From: a virus
Reading direction: 5' to 3' (one strand)
Length of the DNA stretch: 33,231 nt
Virus record (IMG/VR): IMGVR_UViG_3300037847_000679
Coordinates: 1 to 33,231 of that record
Shown piece after piece: positions 513 to 15,326 of the stretch; position 1 is the stretch's first letter; each line of letters opens with the position of its first letter. Below the pieces are notes generated by a model, which saw only the letters and a program-made list of their open reading frames with translations, was not told the origin of the DNA and ran no database searches. A program made the position numbers and the translations under genes.

Positions 513-554
513 TAACTAAAAAAGGGGAGCTCGATTGAACTCCCCTTTAGTTAC
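512..554. terminator. Bidirectional intrinsic terminator between convergent genes
   Basis: The arms are GTAACTAAAAAAGGGGAG (512-529) and CTCCCCTTTAGTTAC (540-554), with a 10-nt loop. They pair over 15 bp, leaving three A residues of the left arm bulged. Read on the minus strand, the GC-rich stem is followed directly by TTTTTT, a classic Rho-independent signal ending the long late operon. Read on the plus strand, it follows the RNR stop with a weaker TTT tail. Its position between two convergent genes supports a two-way role. Confidence 0.85.
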
Positions 555-2966: not shown

Positions 2967-3431
2967 TTAAATTGTTTTATACTTTGTTCTATTGTACTCG
3001 TCTTTATATGCTTTTAAACATCTATTTCTGTTGTCTTCATCAGAAACGTATGATATATGTATCCAATTAGGATTCATGTCTGTACCAAACTCCCATATCA
3101 TTTGATCAAAGTTTAAATTTTCTTTAACCCAATGATACATTTCAGCATTTGTTTTACAACCATAAACATCATCAACATCAATTGCTTGACCTTTACAATG
3201 TTGTGAAGTTTTTGAACCACCGATAGCTTCATTAAGTTCTGGTGATCTAAAAAATGAATTAACTTTTATTGGTCCACCAACCCAAGCTCTTAATGGTTCA
3301 AATATTTTTTCTGCTAATACTTTCATGTTTTCTACTTGTGTAGGATTAGGAGTATTATCTATACCTTTACGCTTAGCGGTTTGTGAATGTATTGCTTCTG
3401 CGTAAGTTATATGTTTGCTTATGTTTTCCAT
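2967..3431 (-). CDS. M15-family zinc peptidase, probable endolysin
   Basis: This 154-aa single-domain protein matches the M15 (Peptidase_M15_3 type) fold of phage endolysins and D-Ala-D-Ala carboxypeptidases. Visible signature: substrate-side FFRS (R62), zinc-binding SQHCKGQAIDVD with H78 and D85, a downstream WEFG (E114, likely catalytic base), and NWIHIS with the third zinc ligand H125. Enzymes of this family cut peptide bonds in peptidoglycan stems. There is no signal peptide, so it needs help to reach the wall. The one-helix membrane protein two genes upstream in the transcript (3990-4277) is the best nearby holin or spanin candidate. The size is normal for the family and all key residues are present. 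The start ATG is 1 nt from the stop of the 49-aa gene upstream. Confidence 0.9.
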   Translation of the reverse strand: MENISKHITYAEAIHSQTAKRKGIDNTPNPTQVENMKVLAEKIFEPLRAWVGGPIKVNSFFRSPELNEAIGGSKTSQHCKGQAIDVDDVYGCKTNAEMYHWVKENLNFDQMIWEFGTDMNPNWIHISYVSDEDNRNRCLKAYKDEYNRTKYKTI

Positions 3432-3583: not shown

Positions 3584-3988
3584 TTAAAATTGACTAGCAG
3601 TATTTACCTCATCAACTGCTTCTTGTATTTCATTTAAATCTGCCGGTAACATTAAATCTAGTCCTGCTTTAAAAACGGTTTCTTTAATACCATCTTTAAA
3701 TATAATTAATGTCGGCGCCATACGTACCTTATATTTCTTTTTAGCAGCTGGGCACGCAGCTATATCTGCTCTATAATATATAACGTCTTTAAGTTCTGAC
3801 CACTGTTCAAACTTGTTCGCATCATTAAACTTAGCGTAAAACTCTACAATTACAGGTTTGGTTTGATCATCACCAAAAGCTTGTCTTTCATTTATCTTTT
3901 TATCAAAGTTACCATCTGTAATCCACTCTACTTCTTGAGCAGACATGCTAAATGATAATAATAATAAAATTATATTTAAGTATTTCAT
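3584..3988 (-). CDS. Secreted thioredoxin-fold protein lacking the CxxC active site
   Basis: This 134-aa protein starts with a clear signal peptide (MKYLNIILLLLSFSMSAQ, residues 1-18, cut likely after SAQ), so the mature form should be periplasmic. The rest follows a thioredoxin fold: a beta strand PVIVEFYA (45-52), a helix, a strand DVIYYRADI (68-76), then KYKVRMAPTLIIFKDG (85-100) with the conserved cis-proline P92 and the final strand-turn. Where WCxxC should sit (residues 51-58) the sequence is YAKFNDAN, so no redox pair exists; the only cysteine is C79. It therefore cannot do thiol exchange in the usual way. It may instead act as a structural or binding protein, or as a partner of the neighbouring barrel protein. 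The fold is well supported; the role is unknown. Confidence 0.78.
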   Translation of the reverse strand: MKYLNIILLLLSFSMSAQEVEWITDGNFDKKINERQAFGDDQTKPVIVEFYAKFNDANKFEQWSELKDVIYYRADIAACPAAKKKYKVRMAPTLIIFKDGIKETVFKAGLDLMLPADLNEIQEAVDEVNTASQF

Positions 3989-3989
3989 A

Positions 3990-4277
3990 CTATCTTTGTT
4001 TACTTTGTATATCGTACAATCGTTGATCTATCTTATCAATTGTTTCTTTTATCTCCTCTACATCTTCTTGCGTATCCATAATTGTTTGACGAATTAATTC
4101 ATCTTTTAAATCATATTCTACTCTATCAATAACTGGTTTAGGTAATTCTTTAGCAAGAGCTATATCAGCTTGCATTACAAAGTATAAGCTAGCTAATGAC
4201 ACTACTCCTCCTATTATTATTCCTATTGTTTTAAGATCAAGTGTTACTTTAGTATCTTCACCTATTTGATTTGCCAT
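3990..4277 (-). CDS. Single-helix membrane protein with C-terminal coiled coil; holin or inner-membrane spanin candidate
   Basis: This 95-aa protein has a short polar N-terminus (1-13), one hydrophobic segment (about residues 17-37, IGIIIGGVVSLASLYFVMQA), then a long charged region with heptad-like spacing (about 53-92, ending DIQSKQR). The topology is one transmembrane helix followed by a soluble coiled coil. It sits two genes upstream (in transcript order) of the M15 endolysin, separated by the thioredoxin-like gene and the 49-aa gene. That position and shape fit a holin, a pinholin or an i-spanin-type protein, since i-spanins are also one helix plus a periplasmic coiled coil. No sequence motif decides between them. 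It ends 1 nt before the start of the secreted thioredoxin-like gene. Confidence 0.7.
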   Translation of the reverse strand: MANQIGEDTKVTLDLKTIGIIIGGVVSLASLYFVMQADIALAKELPKPVIDRVEYDLKDELIRQTIMDTQEDVEEIKETIDKIDQRLYDIQSKQR

Positions 4278-4278
4278 T

Positions 4279-5463
4279 TTATCTTAGTGTTATATTTAAA
4301 CCTACTGAACTGTTATATATTTTACTATCCCAAAACTTAGTATATTCACCTTCAACAAATATACCTATGTTTTTGTTAAGCTTCCAACCAAACTGCACTC
4401 CAGTTTGATAATCTTCCCATTGCTCGTGATCTGAGTCTTGTCTTAATCCACCTAATCCCCAGTTATTTCTATTTAAATAACTAAAATCAACATCACCTTT
4501 TACATACTTGTGATATGGTAGTAAATAAGAACCATAAGCATGAAGCCAGAAATTATTTTTATAATGATAAAAGTCAAAACCGACCACAGGTGATACAACA
4601 CCAAACGGATCTAATAAATCCCATTGCTCGTTATTATAACGATTAATTAGTGATTCAAATATAGTATCACGGAATTGTAAATCAGTATAAGCCACTTCAT
4701 TTCCTTGTGGATCATACCAATAGTAATCATAAACATCTTCACCATCAATATTAATAGTAACCCATTGATCAGTATAACCATAGTTATATCCTAATTGATA
4801 CCAATAGTTAACTGGCCAACCATTTTCATCTGTCTCATTTAACCATATTTCAATTGGATTATAACCGTAAGCTCTTTCATGTGTACGATACATAGCTCCG
4901 GCAGATATACTAAACTTTTTACCAATAGGTAATTTAGCTCTAACCTCAGCAGACTTATAGTTAAAATTAACTTTACCTTGTTTTCTACTTTCAAGCTTAA
5001 CAATGTGGTGTTTACCACTATGTTTTAAGAAATATCGATGATTTTTGAAAACATCATCTCTGGATCTTTCTTTTTCAACATGTATAACGTATTCTAAACC
5101 TTTAATAGATGAATTAGGAGCTGTCATAGCTACGTTAGATTCAGTTCCATCGTAGTATTGTTTACCCTTAATTTCATAATCAAATCTTGCTATCTTACGA
5201 ATACCAAAACCATAGCGATAATCAAAGTCATAATAGTCTGTACCATCAACAACAACAGGTGGTGTATACAAATTACCATCAGGATTTGTTCTTACAAAAT
5301 AATCTTTTGGATTTTCTCTAGGATTTTTAATATCACCTGCTACATATATAGTACCGTATTTAAACAGCTCGTCATAAACAGATTTAAATAAATTCTTTTT
5401 CTCTTGAGCATTAGCAGAGACCGCAATAACCGCCGCAAATAGGACACATATTATTTGTTTCAT
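4279..5463 (-). CDS. Secreted outer-membrane beta-barrel-like protein
   Basis: This 394-aa protein has a signal peptide (MKQIICVLFAAVIAVSANAQ, residues 1-20) of Bacteroidota type. The mature part is rich in Tyr, Trp, Asn and Asp with many alternating polar/aromatic stretches such as FSISAGAMYRTHERAYGYN, NFWLHAYGSYLLPYHKYV and YQTGVQFGWKLNKNIGIFVE. The last segment is a strand-like YNSSVGLNITLR. This is the look of an outer-membrane beta-barrel, with paired strands GVQFGWKL / IGIFVEGEYTKFW / SVGLNITLR at the end. The terminal residue is Arg rather than the usual aromatic, so recognition by the host BAM machinery is uncertain. Its start overlaps the stop of the upstream gene by 4 nt (ATGA). Placed beside endolysin and membrane-protein genes, it could aid outer-membrane disruption or mask the phage receptor. 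Function is inferred only. Confidence 0.72.
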   Translation of the reverse strand: MKQIICVLFAAVIAVSANAQEKKNLFKSVYDELFKYGTIYVAGDIKNPRENPKDYFVRTNPDGNLYTPPVVVDGTDYYDFDYRYGFGIRKIARFDYEIKGKQYYDGTESNVAMTAPNSSIKGLEYVIHVEKERSRDDVFKNHRYFLKHSGKHHIVKLESRKQGKVNFNYKSAEVRAKLPIGKKFSISAGAMYRTHERAYGYNPIEIWLNETDENGWPVNYWYQLGYNYGYTDQWVTINIDGEDVYDYYWYDPQGNEVAYTDLQFRDTIFESLINRYNNEQWDLLDPFGVVSPVVGFDFYHYKNNFWLHAYGSYLLPYHKYVKGDVDFSYLNRNNWGLGGLRQDSDHEQWEDYQTGVQFGWKLNKNIGIFVEGEYTKFWDSKIYNSSVGLNITLR

Positions 5464-5690
5464 TTTTCATTTTTTCTTTTTTTACGTTTTTTTCTTTTTT
5501 TCTTCTCCCACTCTGTAACAACATAAGATCTAATAGTTATTTCTTTAGGCTCTACACAGTGATTTGTTTTAATTACTTTTACCTTATAGTTAGGTAATTT
5601 TTCTTCTTCAACAGTAATACATTTTTTTATTTGTTGAGAAAACGTAGTTGTTGAGATCAATAATAATAAGATTAAAATAGTGTTTTTCAT
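5460..5690 (-). CDS. Small secreted protein with polybasic tail, 76 aa
   Basis: The ATG at 5690 is chosen over an in-frame start at 5756. It places a perfect signal peptide (MKNTILILLLLISTTTFSQQ) at the N-terminus and leaves 1 nt after the stop of the 25-aa gene, whereas the longer form would overlap that gene. The mature part is about 57 residues with two cysteines (IKKC and TNHCVEP), which could form a disulfide in the periplasm. It ends in an extremely basic tail, KKKRKKRKKRKNEK. There is no lipobox before a cysteine, so it is probably not a lipoprotein. The polybasic end suggests electrostatic binding to the outer-membrane inner face, lipopolysaccharide or peptidoglycan. It overlaps the start of the barrel gene by 4 nt, so the two are probably co-translated. 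Confidence 0.65.
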   Translation of the reverse strand: MKNTILILLLLISTTTFSQQIKKCITVEEEKLPNYKVKVIKTNHCVEPKEITIRSYVVTEWEKKKRKKRKKRKNEK

Positions 5691-5771: not shown

Positions 5772-8700
5772 TTATGGTTTTTTATAGTATTGTATAATTC
5801 CGTCGTATCTTTCTATTGCTATATAATCTACACCTTCTTTTAAACCTTTTGGTATACCATTTTTCCAAGATTTTGCTCCTGTAAATGGAACTCTTTTAGT
5901 AAATCCATTTGATTTAGCATACTCTACTTGAGCTTTAAATCTTTTCTTTAATCTTTCTAGTTCTTTTTCTTCTTTCTTTATTGTACTTTCTCTACCCCAA
6001 TAAGGTAAACCAAAGTTCCAACCGTTCCAACCAAGCAATAAAGCTACTCTTTCAAATGTTCTTACATTTTCATCAGTTGCTTGTCTAATATTATTTATTT
6101 TTCTAAATAATCTATCAATAGGTATATTTGTTGCTCCAGATATAATTGAAGATATAGCTATATAAGCAGGATTATCTAAACTCCAACCTCGCTTTTTTAT
6201 GTCTGCCATGTTCCAGCTAAATGTTCTAAGTCCATTTCTTATGTTACGAACTTTTGTATCTATAACTGGTGATATATCAAATAAATTAAATAAAGCTTCT
6301 TCGTATTCCGGAGTTTTCTTACCTGCTTGATAATCTAATTCTCTTATTACGTTTTTAACTGTAGATATTAGTGCACCACCAAAACCAAGACCAAACAATA
6401 GAGAATCTACCATACCATTTATAGTATCAGCTGTTTTATTTCTATCTTTTTCTTCTTCATCTTCAAATGCTACAGCAAATAGAGCTTGTTGTAAAGAATT
6501 AAATACTAAGTTTTGTACAGCTACATAATATATAACACCAGATAAATTACTTAAATCACTTTCACGCTGTGTCATGCCTGGTCGTCTTCTTCTATTAATT
6601 AGATCAAGCAACATTTTCTTAGCCTTCCTGTTATATTGCATTGTAACGTTTTGGAAAGATAATATTAAACGACCAAATAAACTAGCTTGCTGAGATGATA
6701 TTTTACTAGGATTACTAGACTGCTGAGTTTCTTCTGCTATATCGTAAAAATCTTCAAACGCTTGTTGTTTAGCTTCAGCTTTAGTATATTTTTTACCAGT
6801 CTTTTCGTTTGTTCTATTTAATAAAGATTTTTGTCTATTCATATAGAAAGTAGCACCACCTGTAGCAATTGCTAAACTATCAAATATTCTTGTAAGTACA
6901 AAACCTTTATCAAGTAGATATGCTAACATACCTTTGAAACCACCTTTTTTTGCAGCCGCAGCAAGTTCAGCTTCATTAACATTTATCTTTAAACCATCAC
7001 GTCTATTTACCAGATAATCAGAGTTCATTAACTCCATAACTGTTGGAACATAATCTTTGCTTAAAAAAGCTTTAGCAGCTGCATATATATTATTATCACC
7101 CCAATTTATAAAGTTTACATTAGATAACATCTGCAACGTACCAGATCTCATATTAAGGAACATCGCTACAGCAACAGAGCCGTTTAACCAGTCCATCATT
7201 TCATTAACTTGACGTGATCCACTTCCTTGATATGTAGGTCTATTTGAACCTGTTTCCATACGTTTTAAAGAATCACGTAAAGCTTCTACATACTTAGAAC
7301 CAAAAGCAGCTTCAAGCTTGTTCATGTTTTTAGGAGAAAATATTACATCAACATTATCTTTCCACTCAGTTAATAATTCTTTTCTAAAACTTTTGTCTAA
7401 ACTACTTAGTATATCTGATTTAATATCACCTGCTATCCAGTAAGCTGTAGGTGCAGGATATTGTTGTTCTTTTTGTATTAACTGTATATTATCAGCAAAT
7501 TGTTTTAGTTCATAATCTGTGTTAACAGCTTCTACTAAAGCATCAATATCTGCTTGAGATATACCAGGTATTTCCATACCTTGTTTGTTCCATAAATAAA
7601 CTCTTACAGCCTGTGATTTATTATAAGGTCCAACACCTATATCATCATTTAATGGGTTTGAGAACATACCTTTTACACCTTTTTTATTTTTTAATGTAGG
7701 AAAAGCTTGTTTCAACGCATTAAAATCTTTTGCTACATTAATTTTAGCAGATATTAATTCTTGTTCTGCTCTGTTATAAGGCACTATTAAATTATCTCTA
7801 ATCCATTTTTGCTGTCTCGTACCAGTTTCACCTTTACCAACTATGTACTGTACTAATCCTAAAAAGTCATCGGCTGATGCAGTTATTGTAAGCTGCTTCA
7901 TTAATCTTCTAAAAAACCCTTTATCTTTTTTTCTACCTTCAAGCTTAGCTCTAACATCAGATATTTCTTCATCAGCTTTAATACCAGTTTTATCTTCTAG
8001 TATTTCGTTCATTTCTTTATCAAGTCTAGTAGCTTTATCTGCAATAGCTTGTTGAACTCTAGATTTGACATCTAGTTGACTTAGTATGTCTTTTACTTGT
8101 TGTACATTTAAAGCTGAATCATCTGCGAAATAAAAATCATTATATCCTTCAGCTGCTTTACTAAGAAACCAATCAGCTTTTGCTTGTGGTGATCCGTCTT
8201 CTAATGTTATAATATTTTCTAAAGGTATATTTAAACCTATATTGTCTAAAAATACTTTAATAGATTCTTGTGCTGCGCCAGGTCTAGCTGTAACAACATA
8301 TATATCTTTTGGTCCGTATTTACCTTGTCGCCTTAACGCTGTGCCAGCTAATGGACCTTTTTCTGTTGATAAATCTACATTATCAAAATTTCTGTAATCA
8401 AACTCTGCGCCTTGCTCTGATAAACCTTCATATTCTACAGCGAACTCACCTGCAGTTAATTCACCTTTTGTACCATCTGGCATTGTATATAATACTTTTT
8501 CTTTTGTTAAAGCTAAAGTATCGTCCATGTCAAAAGCACTTAATCCTTTACGTTGTTTAAATATTTTTAATCCTTTTATTTTAGCTATTAAAGAATTTAA
8601 TAATGTTTTCTTAACCTGCTTAGATGTTCTAGGAACTCTACAAGGTGATGTACATCTCTTTTCTAATATCTGTTCTGTATATTCTTGTATATTTAAATTT

Positions 8701-11700
8701 TGAGCTGCAGCGTCTTTTGCTATTTTAAGAGAAACTGCAAAATCTTTTAACACTGTAGCTTTGTTTTCGCCTTGTTGTAATCTAGTTATAGCTTGGTTTT
8801 GAACTTCAATTACATTAGGAACTTTTCTGAATCTTTTATCTACTTGAACACCATAATATTCTGCTATAGTTACACCGTGCTTAGTTAATATGTATTGATT
8901 AGGATTTATAACATTTGAATCTGTATATCTTACTAAAGAACCTAAACCTTGATAAACTTTTGATATATTACCATCTCTTAATCCAGTAAACACAAGATTA
9001 AAAGCTTCATTCATCTTAGATTTTAAACCTTGATTTGCTAAAGCAGCATGCTCAGTAGCTAACATAGCACCTTGTATATAAGATCCTTTAACTATAGGTT
9101 TAATAATACTCATTTGATCAGTAGCGGCTCCGTATAATAATAATCTAGCTAAATTTTGAGCTGGTAAACTATGTTCTTCATCTATTCTAGAAGTAAAATC
9201 AGGTTTACCTGTATTTATATCAATAGGGTAAAATGCATAAGGCGCAGCTATTCTAACCATGTGATTCATGTTGTTACCGCTATCATCAATTATACTATCG
9301 AATACGGGTAAGTATTTCATGTTATCACCTTCACGTAAAAAACTACCTAAATCATCAAATAAATCTAGAACATCATCTAAGTTTTGTTCACTATAAACTA
9401 TATCTACAGCGTTTGTATCTAATGTACCTTTTTTATTTTTATATCTAGTTCTGTTTTGTTCTAAAGTAGAACCTTCAGCTCCAGGAATAGCGTTGTCAAA
9501 CTCTGAAACAGTATTAAAATTTAATCTCTTACTTCCAGTCATAGAAGATTTAAGTAGCTCAGTATATTTTTTTCTTTTAGCAGGATCTTCTATAGTATCT
9601 AAAAATTCATTTATACCTTCTTCTCTTAATTCTCTAAATGTTAATTTTGTAGAAGCATCTTCTTTTGAAGCTATTTCAGACAACTGATCTAAATCATAAA
9701 TTATTCTTGATTTTTGTTTGCCTTTTGTTTTACCTCTTTGTCCTATATATTTTTCTTTTTTAACAGGTATTTTTTTAAAACCTAATATACTAGATAATGA
9801 TGTTCCTTCTCCATCTCTGGTAAATTCAAAATAAGTATCAGAGTCTTCTAATTTAACTTTATTTTTAGCTTTATCTATTTTCTTTTGTAATCTTTCTTTA
9901 GCTAATTGTTCTCTTGATTTCTTTTTATCTCTTTCTTTTATAGCTCTTCTACCATCAATAGGACCAGGAGGAGGAGAACCACCTGCAGCTGCTTCTTGAC
10001 CTGTAATAACATCAATTCCAGCATCTTCAACCGCTTGTGGGAAATTTTTAAATTTTTCTTGTATAGCAAGTTCTATGTTTTGTCTATCTTCACCTGTTGC
10101 ATTTTCAAGCAAAGCTCTTAATTCATCAGCACTGTTTTGAGTTTCTAAATTTTGTATCTCTGCTTTTCTTTGTTTAAGCTGTTGTTCATTTCTAGCGGCA
10201 AGTATTCTATTACCTATTTCACGGTTTTGCTCTATTAAATTATCTATAACAGCAATACCTTCAAGTTGTTGAGGTTGAGGTTGAGCGTCAACCACATCTA
10301 ATGAAGTATCTTCTTTTGTTCTAGGATCTAATTTATTTTCAAGAGTTTCCATAAACTCAGCAGCTGTGATTTCACTATCAGATAATGCGGTTTCTAATTT
10401 AGCCATAAAATCTGTATCTTGTGACAACTCATTTAAAGACTCTAAAGCAAAATCATTTGCTAAGATTTGATATAATGATTGTTGTCTTTTTTCACCAGCT
10501 AAAAAATAATCTTTAAATTCTTGTAAACCTTGTTGTGTAATTTGAGGTATGCTATATACAGGCTTGTCAAATCTACTTATCTTACCTGATTTACCAACTT
10601 GTTTTGTTTTTGTAGTACCTATTTTTTTAATACCAAATAGTTTACCAAATCTTCTTTTTATTGTAGCAGCAGGTACAGATTTAATAAAATCTGAATCGAA
10701 AGAATTTACAAAATCTTTATATGCTTGACTAGCAAAAGTACCTATATCTTTTCTTAATTGTTTAAAATAATCTTTTTTAGCATTTTCTTTTATTATACTA
10801 GCTGTAGTCGCAGGATTGTCGCCTTTATTTGCAGCTAATAATATATCTTTTTGTAACTCGTCTTTAATAATAGCTTTAGTTTCAGATACATCTTGATCTT
10901 GTACTTGATCTGTTTGAGATGAATATACTTTTTCTCTTGCTTCACTAACTTGACCTTCATCAAAATCTACTTGTTCTTCTGTATCTGCAACTTCTCTAGC
11001 TTCTTCTCTATCTAAACTTTGACCTCTTCTACCTATACTAGCTTCTTCATATATTTCTTGAGCTTTAGGTTTTAAAGAATTAGTTACATAAGTACTCCAT
11101 GTTACACCTTTTGAAGGATCAAAATTGTTTATAATAGGACCAAGTCTAGAATTAATAGCTTCTAAAACTCTATTTCTTGGTATTGTACCCGCTTCTTTAC
11201 TAAATCTAATTGCTTCTAAATATAAGTTTTGATTATTATTTATCAATGCTTCTTGAGCTTGATTTCTAGCTGCTTGACTAATACTATCATCTTTTATAGT
11301 TTCAAGTAATGTTTCATTTATACCATCATTTGAATCATCTACTTGTATTTCTGTATCTGTATCTGTATCTGCGCCTGTATCTGTATCAGCTTCATATACA
11401 GTTGTATAAGAACCATCTGCATTTCGCTTTTCTATTTTAGCAACATCATCTTTAGTGTAACTTCCTTTTAACCAACCGTCTCCTAACTCTTTATTTTTAA
11501 TTTGTACTCTACTGTCAGTTTTAGCTATATCAAAACCTTTATCTTTTTTATATGTAATTCTATAATCAGAATCTACACCTGTACTAACTTCATCAGAAGT
11601 GGTTACATCTATTCTATCTTTTTGTCTTCTACCTTCAATTGTTTTACCTTCAAGAATTGCATCTACCTCAGATTGACCTACATATCTATAAACATTTTCA

Positions 11701-14700
11701 TCTGTCCAATCTATACCGTATTTTTCTAATCTTTCTTGAGCTTCAATATCACCAGCTCTAGCTTTATCTATATCTGTATCTAACTTATTTTGCTTTTTAG
11801 TTTCTTTACCAAGACCTATAGTATCAAATAAACCGTCTAAATCTATTATACTATTTTTTATTGTACCTTCTCTAGGAGTTTGATAAGTTTCAATTATTTC
11901 TTTTATTTCTCTATTTACATCGTTTAAATCTTGAGTATTACCATTTGCTTCATTTATAACTCTATCATCTATTCTTTTTATTTCATTTTCAAGATTTTTC
12001 TTTCTTTGAATTAAATTTTGTAATCTTATTCTAGCTTTTCTTTCAGTTACAGTAGCAGGAACTTTCATAGCCGCTTCTCTAATCGCAGAAATATTATTTA
12101 TAATAGATCTTTTAGTCGGCATTGATAAAAGATTATCAGCATCAATCTGTTCTTTCATCATTTTAAAAGCGTCATCTGCTATCATAAAACTTTTACTACC
12201 AGGAGTAGACATATTATAATTTTCTACTATTTTTTGAGCCTGATCTGTGTACATGTTATTTTGAGCCGCAGCTACATTAACATTTTGAAATGAACTTATA
12301 GCACCACCAACTCCACCTGTTAACATACCTATTCTCCAACCCATTTCAGCTTCTTTAGCTATTGCTTCTAAATCTATATTTTCAGTAAGTACAGCTCCTA
12401 TTCCTTTGCCAGCCATATCCATACCTTCACCTAACTGCATAGTATTTATAGCTACTTGACCCATATAACCTTGAAAACCTTCAGTTGCAGCTTCTATAGC
12501 AGAATCTATAGGTAATGCAGCGAGTGTAATACCGCTTCTTGTTAACCATCTAGAAAATACATTTTGCATTAATCCTCTTGCTGCAGCGTTTTTTAAAAGA
12601 GTAGCAGACATATTACCTGTTAGTCTAGCACCTGCATATCCCGCAACAAATTCACTTAATGTAGTACCAGCAGCTGACATCACAGGAGCTAGTTGAGCAC
12701 CATATCTATCTTGCTGCATAGCCTGTATGTATTCTTCAGTGGTAAAACCATCTTCACCGAACTCTTTCTGCATTTGTCTTCTTGTGCCTTCTATAAAAGT
12801 ATCACCATAAACTTGACCACCCATATATAGAGAACCAGCAGCCTGTAAAGCAATACCAGCAGGTATCAAAGCTGAGCTTCCACCAGCAGTAAAAGGAGCA
12901 GCGGCAGTACCAACTGTTTGAAGTATACCACCTACAACCATTGGTAACATATGTGGAGCTTGTGATATTAATTGAGCCACAGTGCTATCTTCTAGTTTAT
13001 CACGATCTATAAGAGTACTCCACTCTTCAGCATCAGCTAATTCCTCAAGATCCTCTGTTATATCTGCTATAGTGTTGTCATATCTTGATTTTCTTTGATC
13101 AAAAAACGCGCCTAACGAGTCATCATCGTCCCATAAGCTCCACCATTTTTGATAATCATCAACTTGTTGATTTATTTTTCTAGCTTCACCAACAGTCATA
13201 TCTCTAGTTAACGCTCCGTCTATTCTTTGTTGTAAAGTTCTTCTTTCACCATCATATGCGTCATAAGGTCTATCATCTAGAATATATTTACCTTTTTCTT
13301 CGTCCCAAATTACATAATCATCATTATTAAAAACACCTTTATATTGAAGATCTTTTAATAATTCTAGGTTTTCACCATCTTTTAATCCTTGTTTTACAGA
13401 ATCATATCTTTCAAATCTATCTTCTAATTCAAATCCTTCTTGTAAAGCAATTTCTAATTTATTCATTGTTGCTTTCATTTGAATACCAGTGTCTACTGCT
13501 GCTTCTCTGTATGTTTGAAAATCCATGTTTCCAAAACTAAACATATCTACAGCTCCTGTAAATAAATTGTCTAAAATATCTCCTTTACCAGATCTAACTT
13601 CATCAATTTCTCTTAACACGTTGCTATCTAGCCAACTATCATAATTATATCTTTTATATTTTTGAGCAAATTCACCAAATAAATCATTAGTAATTACACC
13701 ATATTCTTTGTATAATCTTCCTAGTGATTCATTTTCTGTAAGTTTTTCTTTATAAGTATTATTATACCAATCAACAAAATCTTTTTCCATTAACAATTGA
13801 TCTTCTTCAGATATATTTCCATCTTCATCTTGATACCTGTCTCTTAAATCAAGTGTATATTGTTGAGCTTCTTCCATAACTTGTTTTTGAACCTGTTCAG
13901 AAATAAACTGCATTCTAGGATCATCTTTCATTGCTTTGTTTAAAGTATCACTATATGCTGTTACCATTTCTGCTTCTCCAGCGGCTTTAGCTTCGTCATA
14001 AGTATATTTTTCACCCGTATCAGGGTTTATCATTTTCATGAAGTCGTCTTCATTTTTTATATCAGCAATCTCTGGTAGCTTAGTTTTTATATAAGCTTCT
14101 GCTTCTGGATCTGTTATAGACAACTCAGATAGTTCTTCAGCTGATAGCTCAAGATCACCTCTAATATAAGCATCATATCTTTCTTTTTGCTTATTTATAT
14201 AGTCAGTTTTAATTTTTTCAGCCGCAGCTCTACCTTCTTGACTTACCCAATAATCATAGCTAGGTTCACTTCTTTGACTAGGATGTGGTGATACAAAAGG
14301 ATCTGTACCACCTTCTCTTGTGTTAATATAATCTATACCATCATAAGGATTTTCATCATTAGTATATGAAAGGATGCCAGGCCTTAAATCATTTCTATCA
14401 ATACCTGTTCTTTCTAAAAACTCTTCATCTGACAAATCTTTATGTTTTAAAGAAATATCATTGATAAATTTATCGGTCATGTAGTTTTTCCTAAGATTAT
14501 AATTCTTATCAAATCTACTATTGTGATCTACATATAATGATAAATCATTAACATCATATTTAAATTCAAGACCTTTAGGGAAAGAAGCTTGTATATTATC
14601 TAACTTGTTTTGTAAAGCTTCAAAATCAGTATTACCATTTTCATCTACAGGAACTTCACCACCACCTAATAATAATTCATCAATTGTTTGCTGTAGTGCT

Positions 14701-15326
14701 TTTACTCGTTTTTCGTAATTAGTTCCTTCTGTAGTAGTAGCGAGTTCATTATAATTCTTAGCTACATCAATATCCATGTTTTCAACTACTACGTATTTTT
14801 TAATATCACGCGGATCTGCTGCTTCCACCTCTCCAGTTCCTAACAGATCGTCTATTAATTGCTGTTCTTCATCAGGATTTTCAATTTCTTTTGGATCTTT
14901 TAATTCGTCACCAAATAATGATTTATTCCATGTATTAAAATCTGACGTTACTAAATTTTTTGCTTTTAAAAAACTATGTAGTTTTAATCTATATTTAGGA
15001 TTATTTTTAGCGTGTGTAACCCAGTTTTCATATTCACCAGCACCTTTTTTAGTAATAAGTTTTCTATCTAATAATTTATTATATAAAAACTTAGCATGCT
15101 TTTCATTACCTGTTGATAAAAAACTACTTACATCAGAAGGTATTTCTTTTTTCTTTTCTGTTTCAGGCTGTTTATAATCTTTATGTGATTTTAAATAACC
15201 TAACATTCTGTCTCTACCATAATCAACAGACTGTTGACTTGTATCTTTTATGGTGAATTTTGGTCCTCCTTTTTCCCAATAAAGACTTTTTAATTGGTCA
15301 TAGGTTAAATTATCTAAATCTTGCAT
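5772..15326 (-). CDS. Giant polyvalent virion protein (3184 aa) with HAD phosphatase and sigma-like segments
   Basis: An uninterrupted 3184-codon frame, placed after the nozzle and internal-protein genes, in the position of the T7 gp15/gp16 internal proteins that are ejected with DNA. Visible modules: acidic, helix-rich N-terminus (1-780); Gly/Ala-rich hydrophobic segments near 790-840 and 972-1012; a YRYVGQSEVDAIL...TTS segment (about 1205-1300) faintly like ADP-ribosyltransferases; an acidic DT repeat near 1312-1330; a sigma-70 region 2-like segment (about 1345-1440) with NNFDPSKGVTWSTYV; a basic stretch near 1790-1830; a HAD-type phosphatase (about 2258-2420) with FDMDDTLA, VTARP and YFADDSA; and a C-terminal region with hydrophobic helices near 2927-2952 and 2968-2992. 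The mix of enzyme and helical linker modules is that of the 'large polyvalent proteins' of phages. The HAD catalytic motifs are complete; the other modules are less sure. Role: probably packaged and injected early effector plus DNA-ejection channel. Confidence 0.85.
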   Translation of the reverse strand: MQDLDNLTYDQLKSLYWEKGGPKFTIKDTSQQSVDYGRDRMLGYLKSHKDYKQPETEKKKEIPSDVSSFLSTGNEKHAKFLYNKLLDRKLITKKGAGEYENWVTHAKNNPKYRLKLHSFLKAKNLVTSDFNTWNKSLFGDELKDPKEIENPDEEQQLIDDLLGTGEVEAADPRDIKKYVVVENMDIDVAKNYNELATTTEGTNYEKRVKALQQTIDELLLGGGEVPVDENGNTDFEALQNKLDNIQASFPKGLEFKYDVNDLSLYVDHNSRFDKNYNLRKNYMTDKFINDISLKHKDLSDEEFLERTGIDRNDLRPGILSYTNDENPYDGIDYINTREGGTDPFVSPHPSQRSEPSYDYWVSQEGRAAAEKIKTDYINKQKERYDAYIRGDLELSAEELSELSITDPEAEAYIKTKLPEIADIKNEDDFMKMINPDTGEKYTYDEAKAAGEAEMVTAYSDTLNKAMKDDPRMQFISEQVQKQVMEEAQQYTLDLRDRYQDEDGNISEEDQLLMEKDFVDWYNNTYKEKLTENESLGRLYKEYGVITNDLFGEFAQKYKRYNYDSWLDSNVLREIDEVRSGKGDILDNLFTGAVDMFSFGNMDFQTYREAAVDTGIQMKATMNKLEIALQEGFELEDRFERYDSVKQGLKDGENLELLKDLQYKGVFNNDDYVIWDEEKGKYILDDRPYDAYDGERRTLQQRIDGALTRDMTVGEARKINQQVDDYQKWWSLWDDDDSLGAFFDQRKSRYDNTIADITEDLEELADAEEWSTLIDRDKLEDSTVAQLISQAPHMLPMVVGGILQTVGTAAAPFTAGGSSALIPAGIALQAAGSLYMGGQVYGDTFIEGTRRQMQKEFGEDGFTTEEYIQAMQQDRYGAQLAPVMSAAGTTLSEFVAGYAGARLTGNMSATLLKNAAARGLMQNVFSRWLTRSGITLAALPIDSAIEAATEGFQGYMGQVAINTMQLGEGMDMAGKGIGAVLTENIDLEAIAKEAEMGWRIGMLTGGVGGAISSFQNVNVAAAQNNMYTDQAQKIVENYNMSTPGSKSFMIADDAFKMMKEQIDADNLLSMPTKRSIINNISAIREAAMKVPATVTERKARIRLQNLIQRKKNLENEIKRIDDRVINEANGNTQDLNDVNREIKEIIETYQTPREGTIKNSIIDLDGLFDTIGLGKETKKQNKLDTDIDKARAGDIEAQERLEKYGIDWTDENVYRYVGQSEVDAILEGKTIEGRRQKDRIDVTTSDEVSTGVDSDYRITYKKDKGFDIAKTDSRVQIKNKELGDGWLKGSYTKDDVAKIEKRNADGSYTTVYEADTDTGADTDTDTEIQVDDSNDGINETLLETIKDDSISQAARNQAQEALINNNQNLYLEAIRFSKEAGTIPRNRVLEAINSRLGPIINNFDPSKGVTWSTYVTNSLKPKAQEIYEEASIGRRGQSLDREEAREVADTEEQVDFDEGQVSEAREKVYSSQTDQVQDQDVSETKAIIKDELQKDILLAANKGDNPATTASIIKENAKKDYFKQLRKDIGTFASQAYKDFVNSFDSDFIKSVPAATIKRRFGKLFGIKKIGTTKTKQVGKSGKISRFDKPVYSIPQITQQGLQEFKDYFLAGEKRQQSLYQILANDFALESLNELSQDTDFMAKLETALSDSEITAAEFMETLENKLDPRTKEDTSLDVVDAQPQPQQLEGIAVIDNLIEQNREIGNRILAARNEQQLKQRKAEIQNLETQNSADELRALLENATGEDRQNIELAIQEKFKNFPQAVEDAGIDVITGQEAAAGGSPPPGPIDGRRAIKERDKKKSREQLAKERLQKKIDKAKNKVKLEDSDTYFEFTRDGEGTSLSSILGFKKIPVKKEKYIGQRGKTKGKQKSRIIYDLDQLSEIASKEDASTKLTFRELREEGINEFLDTIEDPAKRKKYTELLKSSMTGSKRLNFNTVSEFDNAIPGAEGSTLEQNRTRYKNKKGTLDTNAVDIVYSEQNLDDVLDLFDDLGSFLREGDNMKYLPVFDSIIDDSGNNMNHMVRIAAPYAFYPIDINTGKPDFTSRIDEEHSLPAQNLARLLLYGAATDQMSIIKPIVKGSYIQGAMLATEHAALANQGLKSKMNEAFNLVFTGLRDGNISKVYQGLGSLVRYTDSNVINPNQYILTKHGVTIAEYYGVQVDKRFRKVPNVIEVQNQAITRLQQGENKATVLKDFAVSLKIAKDAAAQNLNIQEYTEQILEKRCTSPCRVPRTSKQVKKTLLNSLIAKIKGLKIFKQRKGLSAFDMDDTLALTKEKVLYTMPDGTKGELTAGEFAVEYEGLSEQGAEFDYRNFDNVDLSTEKGPLAGTALRRQGKYGPKDIYVVTARPGAAQESIKVFLDNIGLNIPLENIITLEDGSPQAKADWFLSKAAEGYNDFYFADDSALNVQQVKDILSQLDVKSRVQQAIADKATRLDKEMNEILEDKTGIKADEEISDVRAKLEGRKKDKGFFRRLMKQLTITASADDFLGLVQYIVGKGETGTRQQKWIRDNLIVPYNRAEQELISAKINVAKDFNALKQAFPTLKNKKGVKGMFSNPLNDDIGVGPYNKSQAVRVYLWNKQGMEIPGISQADIDALVEAVNTDYELKQFADNIQLIQKEQQYPAPTAYWIAGDIKSDILSSLDKSFRKELLTEWKDNVDVIFSPKNMNKLEAAFGSKYVEALRDSLKRMETGSNRPTYQGSGSRQVNEMMDWLNGSVAVAMFLNMRSGTLQMLSNVNFINWGDNNIYAAAKAFLSKDYVPTVMELMNSDYLVNRRDGLKINVNEAELAAAAKKGGFKGMLAYLLDKGFVLTRIFDSLAIATGGATFYMNRQKSLLNRTNEKTGKKYTKAEAKQQAFEDFYDIAEETQQSSNPSKISSQQASLFGRLILSFQNVTMQYNRKAKKMLLDLINRRRRPGMTQRESDLSNLSGVIYYVAVQNLVFNSLQQALFAVAFEDEEEKDRNKTADTINGMVDSLLFGLGFGGALISTVKNVIRELDYQAGKKTPEYEEALFNLFDISPVIDTKVRNIRNGLRTFSWNMADIKKRGWSLDNPAYIAISSIISGATNIPIDRLFRKINNIRQATDENVRTFERVALLLGWNGWNFGLPYWGRESTIKKEEKELERLKKRFKAQVEYAKSNGFTKRVPFTGAKSWKNGIPKGLKEGVDYIAIERYDGIIQYYKKP

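Follow-up and report, generated by a model that had tools for sequence, protein, structure and literature searches.

A predicted outer-membrane beta-barrel of a marine Bacteroidota phage belongs to a recurrent three-gene module that is a candidate for the outer-membrane step of lysis

The window, by which we mean the whole 33,231-nucleotide stretch analyzed here, is a virus record of 33 kb. Its portal has relatives in an uncultured Manatee Spring podovirus, in Flavobacterium elemo phages and in Cellulophaga phages. The late operon lies on the minus strand and runs from the terminase and portal through to a terminator-like site at 548-521; no Rfam match was found in the window. The gene under study, which we call OMP, is placed in the 3' part of this operon, downstream of the portal, the capsid and a 3184-aa virion-type protein. 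The latter (5772-15326) is encoded just upstream of the genes of interest, where the elemo phages (gp18) and the Manatee podovirus have their very large structural proteins. The relevant features, in order of transcription, are as follows.

5460-5690, minus strand: PRE, a small secreted lysine-rich protein, upstream of OMP
4279-5463, minus strand: OMP, 394 aa, predicted secreted 12-stranded outer-membrane beta-barrel
3990-4277, minus strand: TMCC, 95 aa, one transmembrane (TM) helix and a charged, probably helical tail
3584-3988, minus strand: TRX, 134 aa, signal peptide and thioredoxin fold (PF00085), no CxxC
2967-3431, minus strand: endolysin of the peptidase M15 family (PF08291, E 1.9e-17; phrog_894, E 7.4e-32)
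521-548, minus strand: terminator-like hairpin (12 bp stem) that follows the last operon gene

The genes are tightly packed. PRE, whose likely start is the ATG at 5690 (the open reading frame as listed runs to 5756), shares 4 nt with the start of OMP and is present in only part of the OMP family, and TMCC starts 1 nt past the OMP stop. TMCC is the clearest TM protein of the late operon, signal peptides aside. Residues K16, E54, K58, D59 and R63 are invariant, and K/R stand at 2.5 before the TM helix and 1.3 after it, which suggests an N-in topology. Among the hits of the TRX model, 218 of 220 are without CxxC, as is the TRX of the window; CxxC is the active site of redox-active thioredoxins. 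The M15 endolysin has no signal peptide. The same operon encodes a soluble PAP2-superfamily phosphatase (1572-2123; PF01569, E 1.3e-7), and PAP2-related genes adjoin the M15 endolysin in some other loci, e.g., L259 and L266. At the operon end are two genes for small, very basic proteins (594-1226 and 1226-1582), one of them a DUF6321 protein (PF19846, E 5e-11); genes of this basic type are also found near the module on other contigs.

A sequence-only reading of this DNA had singled out the 394-aa frame as a late-operon gene with a Bacteroidota signal peptide and many amphipathic strands, flanked by genes for secreted or membrane proteins, and proposed an outer-membrane barrel. Each of these points was borne out, with the gene on the minus strand and its neighbors encoding a protein with a signal peptide, another with one TM helix, and a secreted protein of thioredoxin fold. 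By inspection, the N-terminus of OMP is hydrophobic and ends SANA/QE, a typical Bacteroidota signal peptide of the ordinary kind, without a lipobox. Polar and hydrophobic faces alternate along the strands in the family average. An AlphaFold2 (AF2) model built from an alignment of 72 diverse sequences, down to ∼30% identity, has 12 membrane strands (pLDDT 82.3, pTM 0.73); a shallow alignment of sequences 70-90% identical gave a useless model (pLDDT 51). In the better model, a large domain is seen in the predicted extracellular loop 4 (196-286), and the stretch 94-119 is of low confidence. When this model was searched against the PDB with Foldseek, 74 matches were obtained at E ≤ 0.001, and the best 50 of these 74 were all outer-membrane barrels, autotransporters and porins among them. 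The modeling that had been suggested as a check thus returned a barrel rather than a soluble non-barrel fold, and the predicted fold confirms OMP as a genuine outer-membrane barrel, with the fold class secure. The accompanying remark that phages rarely carry whole outer-membrane barrels was only partly right, as the viral structure matches to OMP include several proteins annotated as phage-encoded outer-membrane proteins.

By sequence, OMP stands apart. No sequence match to the family was found in Pfam, PHROG, NCBIfam or the PDB, a search of 25 diverse members gave no hit to a Pfam outer-membrane family (Ail/Lom and porins included) at E ≤ 1, and tblastn found no relatives in 50,697 sequenced phage records; TMCC and TRX, sought in sequenced phages, gave no convincing match. 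Each IMG/VR scan returned at least 523 to 541 candidate stretches that encode OMP relatives. In cellular genomes, OMP matches were found on only five GTDB contigs. Three of these, from MAGs assigned to Woesearchaeota and Alphaproteobacteria (L088, L089 and L090), encode the barrel, with TMCC and TRX also on L088 and L090, and are probably misbinned phage DNA. A host origin of OMP was considered and rejected: when 299 genomes were sampled from the family of a positive Flavobacteriaceae MAG (L091), a single one was positive, and its match lies on a 3.7-kb contig that carries the phage module itself. Judged from these searches, the OMP family is viral, is found almost only in viruses of marine Bacteroidota, and is absent from the family libraries searched. 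A likely distant member, on structural grounds, is the unnamed viral protein A0A516LKJ4, whose BFVD model matches OMP with a Foldseek E of 4.9e-26, TM scores of 0.58/0.65 and 23% identity.

Loci related to the window were found by similarity search, and their genes were compared by means of profiles built from the window genes. Among these loci, some of which overlap and which are not independent samples, 114 of the 117 OMP loci with full flanks have both TMCC and TRX on the OMP strand and no more than 4.5 kb away, and in none of the 117 are the partners missing from the whole locus. TMCC and TRX are adjacent in 109 of the 114 loci, with a median overlap of 1 nt. Viewed from the TMCC side, loci with full flanks contain TRX in 45/45 cases and OMP in 38/45; the seven TMCC-TRX loci without a recognizable OMP mean that OMP is not strictly needed for TMCC and TRX. 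The module recurs in podovirus-like contigs and in contigs of 100-245 kb, where OMP is only ∼33% identical. Gene order varies, with OMP first or last, and some loci hold two TMCC-TRX pairs around OMP (L207, L208, L211 and L229), which might represent a working pair and a regulator pair. On one 245-kb contig (IMGVR_UViG_3300030098_004828), the barrel occurs twice, 119 kb apart (L177 and L179), each copy accompanied by TMCC, TRX and a holin; this may reflect a duplication, or the assembly may have joined two copies. We note that the distance correlation of OMP with TMCC (0.49) is hardly different from that of OMP with the endolysin (0.43), so shared ancestry may explain it. Lipoprotein genes near the module are sporadic (34 of 179 loci), and the idea that a lipoprotein takes the place of a missing barrel was unsupported (32/171 versus 2/8 loci). 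In the literature we searched, no relevant account of such a module was found, and a phage outer-membrane barrel inside a lysis-linked module spanning three compartments is not described.

The link to lysis is seen in the gene neighborhoods. An endolysin, either M15 or amidase, lies within 6 kb of OMP in 96 of 155 loci, and none was recognized by the models used in the other 59. In one branch related to the window (L055, L033 and L069), the order is TMCC, TRX, OMP, a small protein, M15 endolysin and a 3TM holin, in a compact cassette with 4-nt overlaps or gaps of a few nucleotides. The module shares with spanins its location in the lysis cassette. Of the 16 whole records tested, 12 encode the holin family phrog_3427, close relatives of the window among them, and the classical Rz family (PF03245) was found in 0/16, with the E. 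coli control positive. A survey of spanins found none in 91 of 677 phages, Bacteroides phages and those of the flavobacterium Croceibacter among them (PMC6139136). The lysis genes described in a paper on flavophage genomes are mainly endolysins that have TM proteins nearby, plus a few spanins or holins (PMC8776804). The cultured or complete sister phages (elemo, phi38:1, Gundel and Manatee) have instead a single membrane-anchored protein encoded close to the endolysin, without a functional annotation in PHROGs. These proteins (L083:2383-2937, L084:19185-19784, L087:27342-27989 and L082:35390-36013) are ∼200 aa long, with an N-terminal TM segment and a beta-rich-looking C-terminal end, and are possibly u-spanins of unusual layout.

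Taken together, the holin and endolysin steps have genes in these phages and Rz has none in the 16 records, which leaves the outer-membrane step without a gene; with the other steps covered, the three envelope proteins are, by elimination, natural candidates for it. In the mechanism we propose, the holin and endolysin would first open the inner membrane and cut the peptidoglycan. TMCC would be fixed in the inner membrane and extend its helical tail into the periplasm, which would also be the compartment of TRX with its redox-inactive thioredoxin fold, and OMP would be the outermost component, in the outer membrane. The three would then bind and jointly breach the outer membrane in the place of spanins. 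The predicted periplasmic turn of OMP (91-121) has a mean relative entropy of 2.85, compared with 2.49 in the extracellular loops, a conservation that would be expected of an inward-facing partner site if the model is right.

Of the three functions the sequence-only reading had offered (receptor masking, permeabilization of the outer membrane at lysis, and a change of surface traits), permeabilization at lysis fits best, as the linkage of OMP with an endolysin and two envelope partners is found across different phage types. The three-gene module, our main result, had not been noticed in that reading. In our view, the data are best explained by a lysis module of marine Bacteroidota phages in which the barrel acts at the outer-membrane step, an explanation with about an even chance of being correct. 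The more specific proposal, that TMCC, the redox-dead TRX and OMP form a barrel-based disruption machine that replaces spanins in a large group of marine Bacteroidota phages with different genome types, is put forward more tentatively and falls somewhat short of an even chance. Several observations count against the lysis reading: the 59 loci where no endolysin was recognized near OMP, the seven TMCC-TRX loci with no recognizable barrel, and, in the large-contig branch, the position of OMP near a gene that in the members tested has a type IX secretion (T9SS) sorting domain, which may point to another role at the surface. A spanin-like reading is further weakened because OMP is no lipoprotein, unlike the outer-membrane component in the published definition of spanins. 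Many Gram-negative phages are without a recognizable spanin, and the module offers a concrete and abundant three-gene candidate for outer-membrane breakage; it also supplies partners and a context for a barrel family that is absent from the public family libraries searched and whose viruses infect an important group of marine bacteria.

The strongest rival is superinfection exclusion or receptor replacement, in which the barrel would mask or displace a receptor so that other phages cannot adsorb or inject, with TMCC and TRX helping inside. Phage-encoded porins and lipoproteins that block receptors exist, such as the Lc porin of PA-2 and Llp of T5, and OMP has both the fold of surface barrels and the large predicted extracellular domain of loop 4. 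However, OMP lies with the endolysin at the 3' end of the late operon, which implies that exclusion would come late, and the phage types in which OMP is conserved need not have a receptor in common. Its extracellular loops are also not strongly diversified: conservation in the predicted loops is only slightly below that of the remainder, which speaks against the receptor masking offered earlier, and comparison with close relatives gives dN of 0.06-0.09, dS of 0.60-0.80 and dN/dS of ∼0.1. The OMP gene is under strong purifying selection. We regard exclusion as unlikely.

A little less probable again is a substrate channel, that is, a 12-stranded porin like Tsx, KdgM or NanC that brings nucleosides or sugars into the infected cell. 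In VIA-align, Tsx is the top match to the OMP model (Z 14.7, rmsd 4.4, 194 residues), with EstA, KdgM, NanC, NalP, OMPLA and others no more than a few Z units behind. The lumen-facing polar side is the more conserved face in most strands and lumen residues are among the most conserved, with W306 and H308 in strand 9 as examples. These structural matches are at 7-13% identity, though, and the fold likeness is spread over autotransporters and enzymes, so no particular function follows from it; a channel would also leave the constant TMCC and TRX partners and the endolysin linkage unexplained. An enzymatic reading modeled on OMPLA (Z 11.6) or OmpT was provisionally set aside because there is no invariant serine over 72 members, as sought by conservation for the Ser-His-Asn triad of OMPLA, and no recognizable motif.

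We also considered that TMCC acts as the holin and TRX as a periplasmic antiholin, in the manner of T and RI of T4, with OMP a separate passenger gene in the operon. TMCC has one TM helix and a probable N-in topology, is the clearest TM protein of the late operon other than those with signal peptides, and adjoins TRX in 45/45 loci; the holin family phrog_1296 matches it weakly (E 0.033 for the window, 8.8e-4 for L068). The recognized 3TM holin in 12 of the 16 records, including close relatives of the window, and its place beside the endolysin in one branch argue against this, and the presence of OMP in 38 of 45 TMCC loci is too regular for a passenger. We therefore regard this alternative as improbable, and the narrower idea that TMCC is the only holin was dropped once the 3TM holin was found in most records. 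Least probable of all is a T9SS-linked surface or secretion function, in which OMP would help display phage-encoded T9SS cargo. In the large-contig branch, 74 of 81 loci have a BIG994-type gene in the neighborhood of OMP, and TIGR04183, the type A sorting domain, was identified in both members tested (E 1.7e-14 and 4.2e-13), but such a gene occurs in 0 of 90 loci of the window's own branch, so this display cannot be the common function. The ∼1000-aa secreted proteins with TIGR04183 on two large marine phage contigs (L092:5015-7999 and L113:9037-12522) are, by their sequences, apparent phage-encoded cargo for the type IX secretion system of the host.

The lysis module that we favor can be set beside three kinds of known system. 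Like Lom of lambda, the Lc porin of PA-2 and the outer membrane protein of Aeromonas phage phiAS5, the last of which is among the viral structure matches to OMP, OMP is a complete outer-membrane barrel of phage origin. Lom and Lc are known as prophage-borne surface genes. OMP differs from these proteins in having no sequence relation to them by Pfam or PHROGs and in belonging to a conserved module linked to lysis. With holin T and antiholin RI of T4, the module shares the pairing of a one-TM inner-membrane protein that has a predicted periplasmic domain with a secreted periplasmic partner; unlike T and RI, to which there is no sequence relation, the partner has a thioredoxin fold and another holin is encoded in most records. 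The module also has a likeness to the spanins, Rz/Rz1 of lambda and gp11 of T1, in that a gene set beside the endolysin covers the inner membrane, the periplasm and the outer membrane. The predicted layout of TMCC, one N-terminal TM segment and a helical periplasmic tail, would fit an i-spanin, with no family match. In contrast to spanins, a 12-stranded barrel whose signal peptide is of the ordinary kind stands in place of the outer-membrane lipoprotein, an extra periplasmic protein of thioredoxin fold is present, and PF03245 has no match in the 16 records. With neither a lipoprotein component nor an Rz family member, the module is by definition no spanin, but it may work like one.
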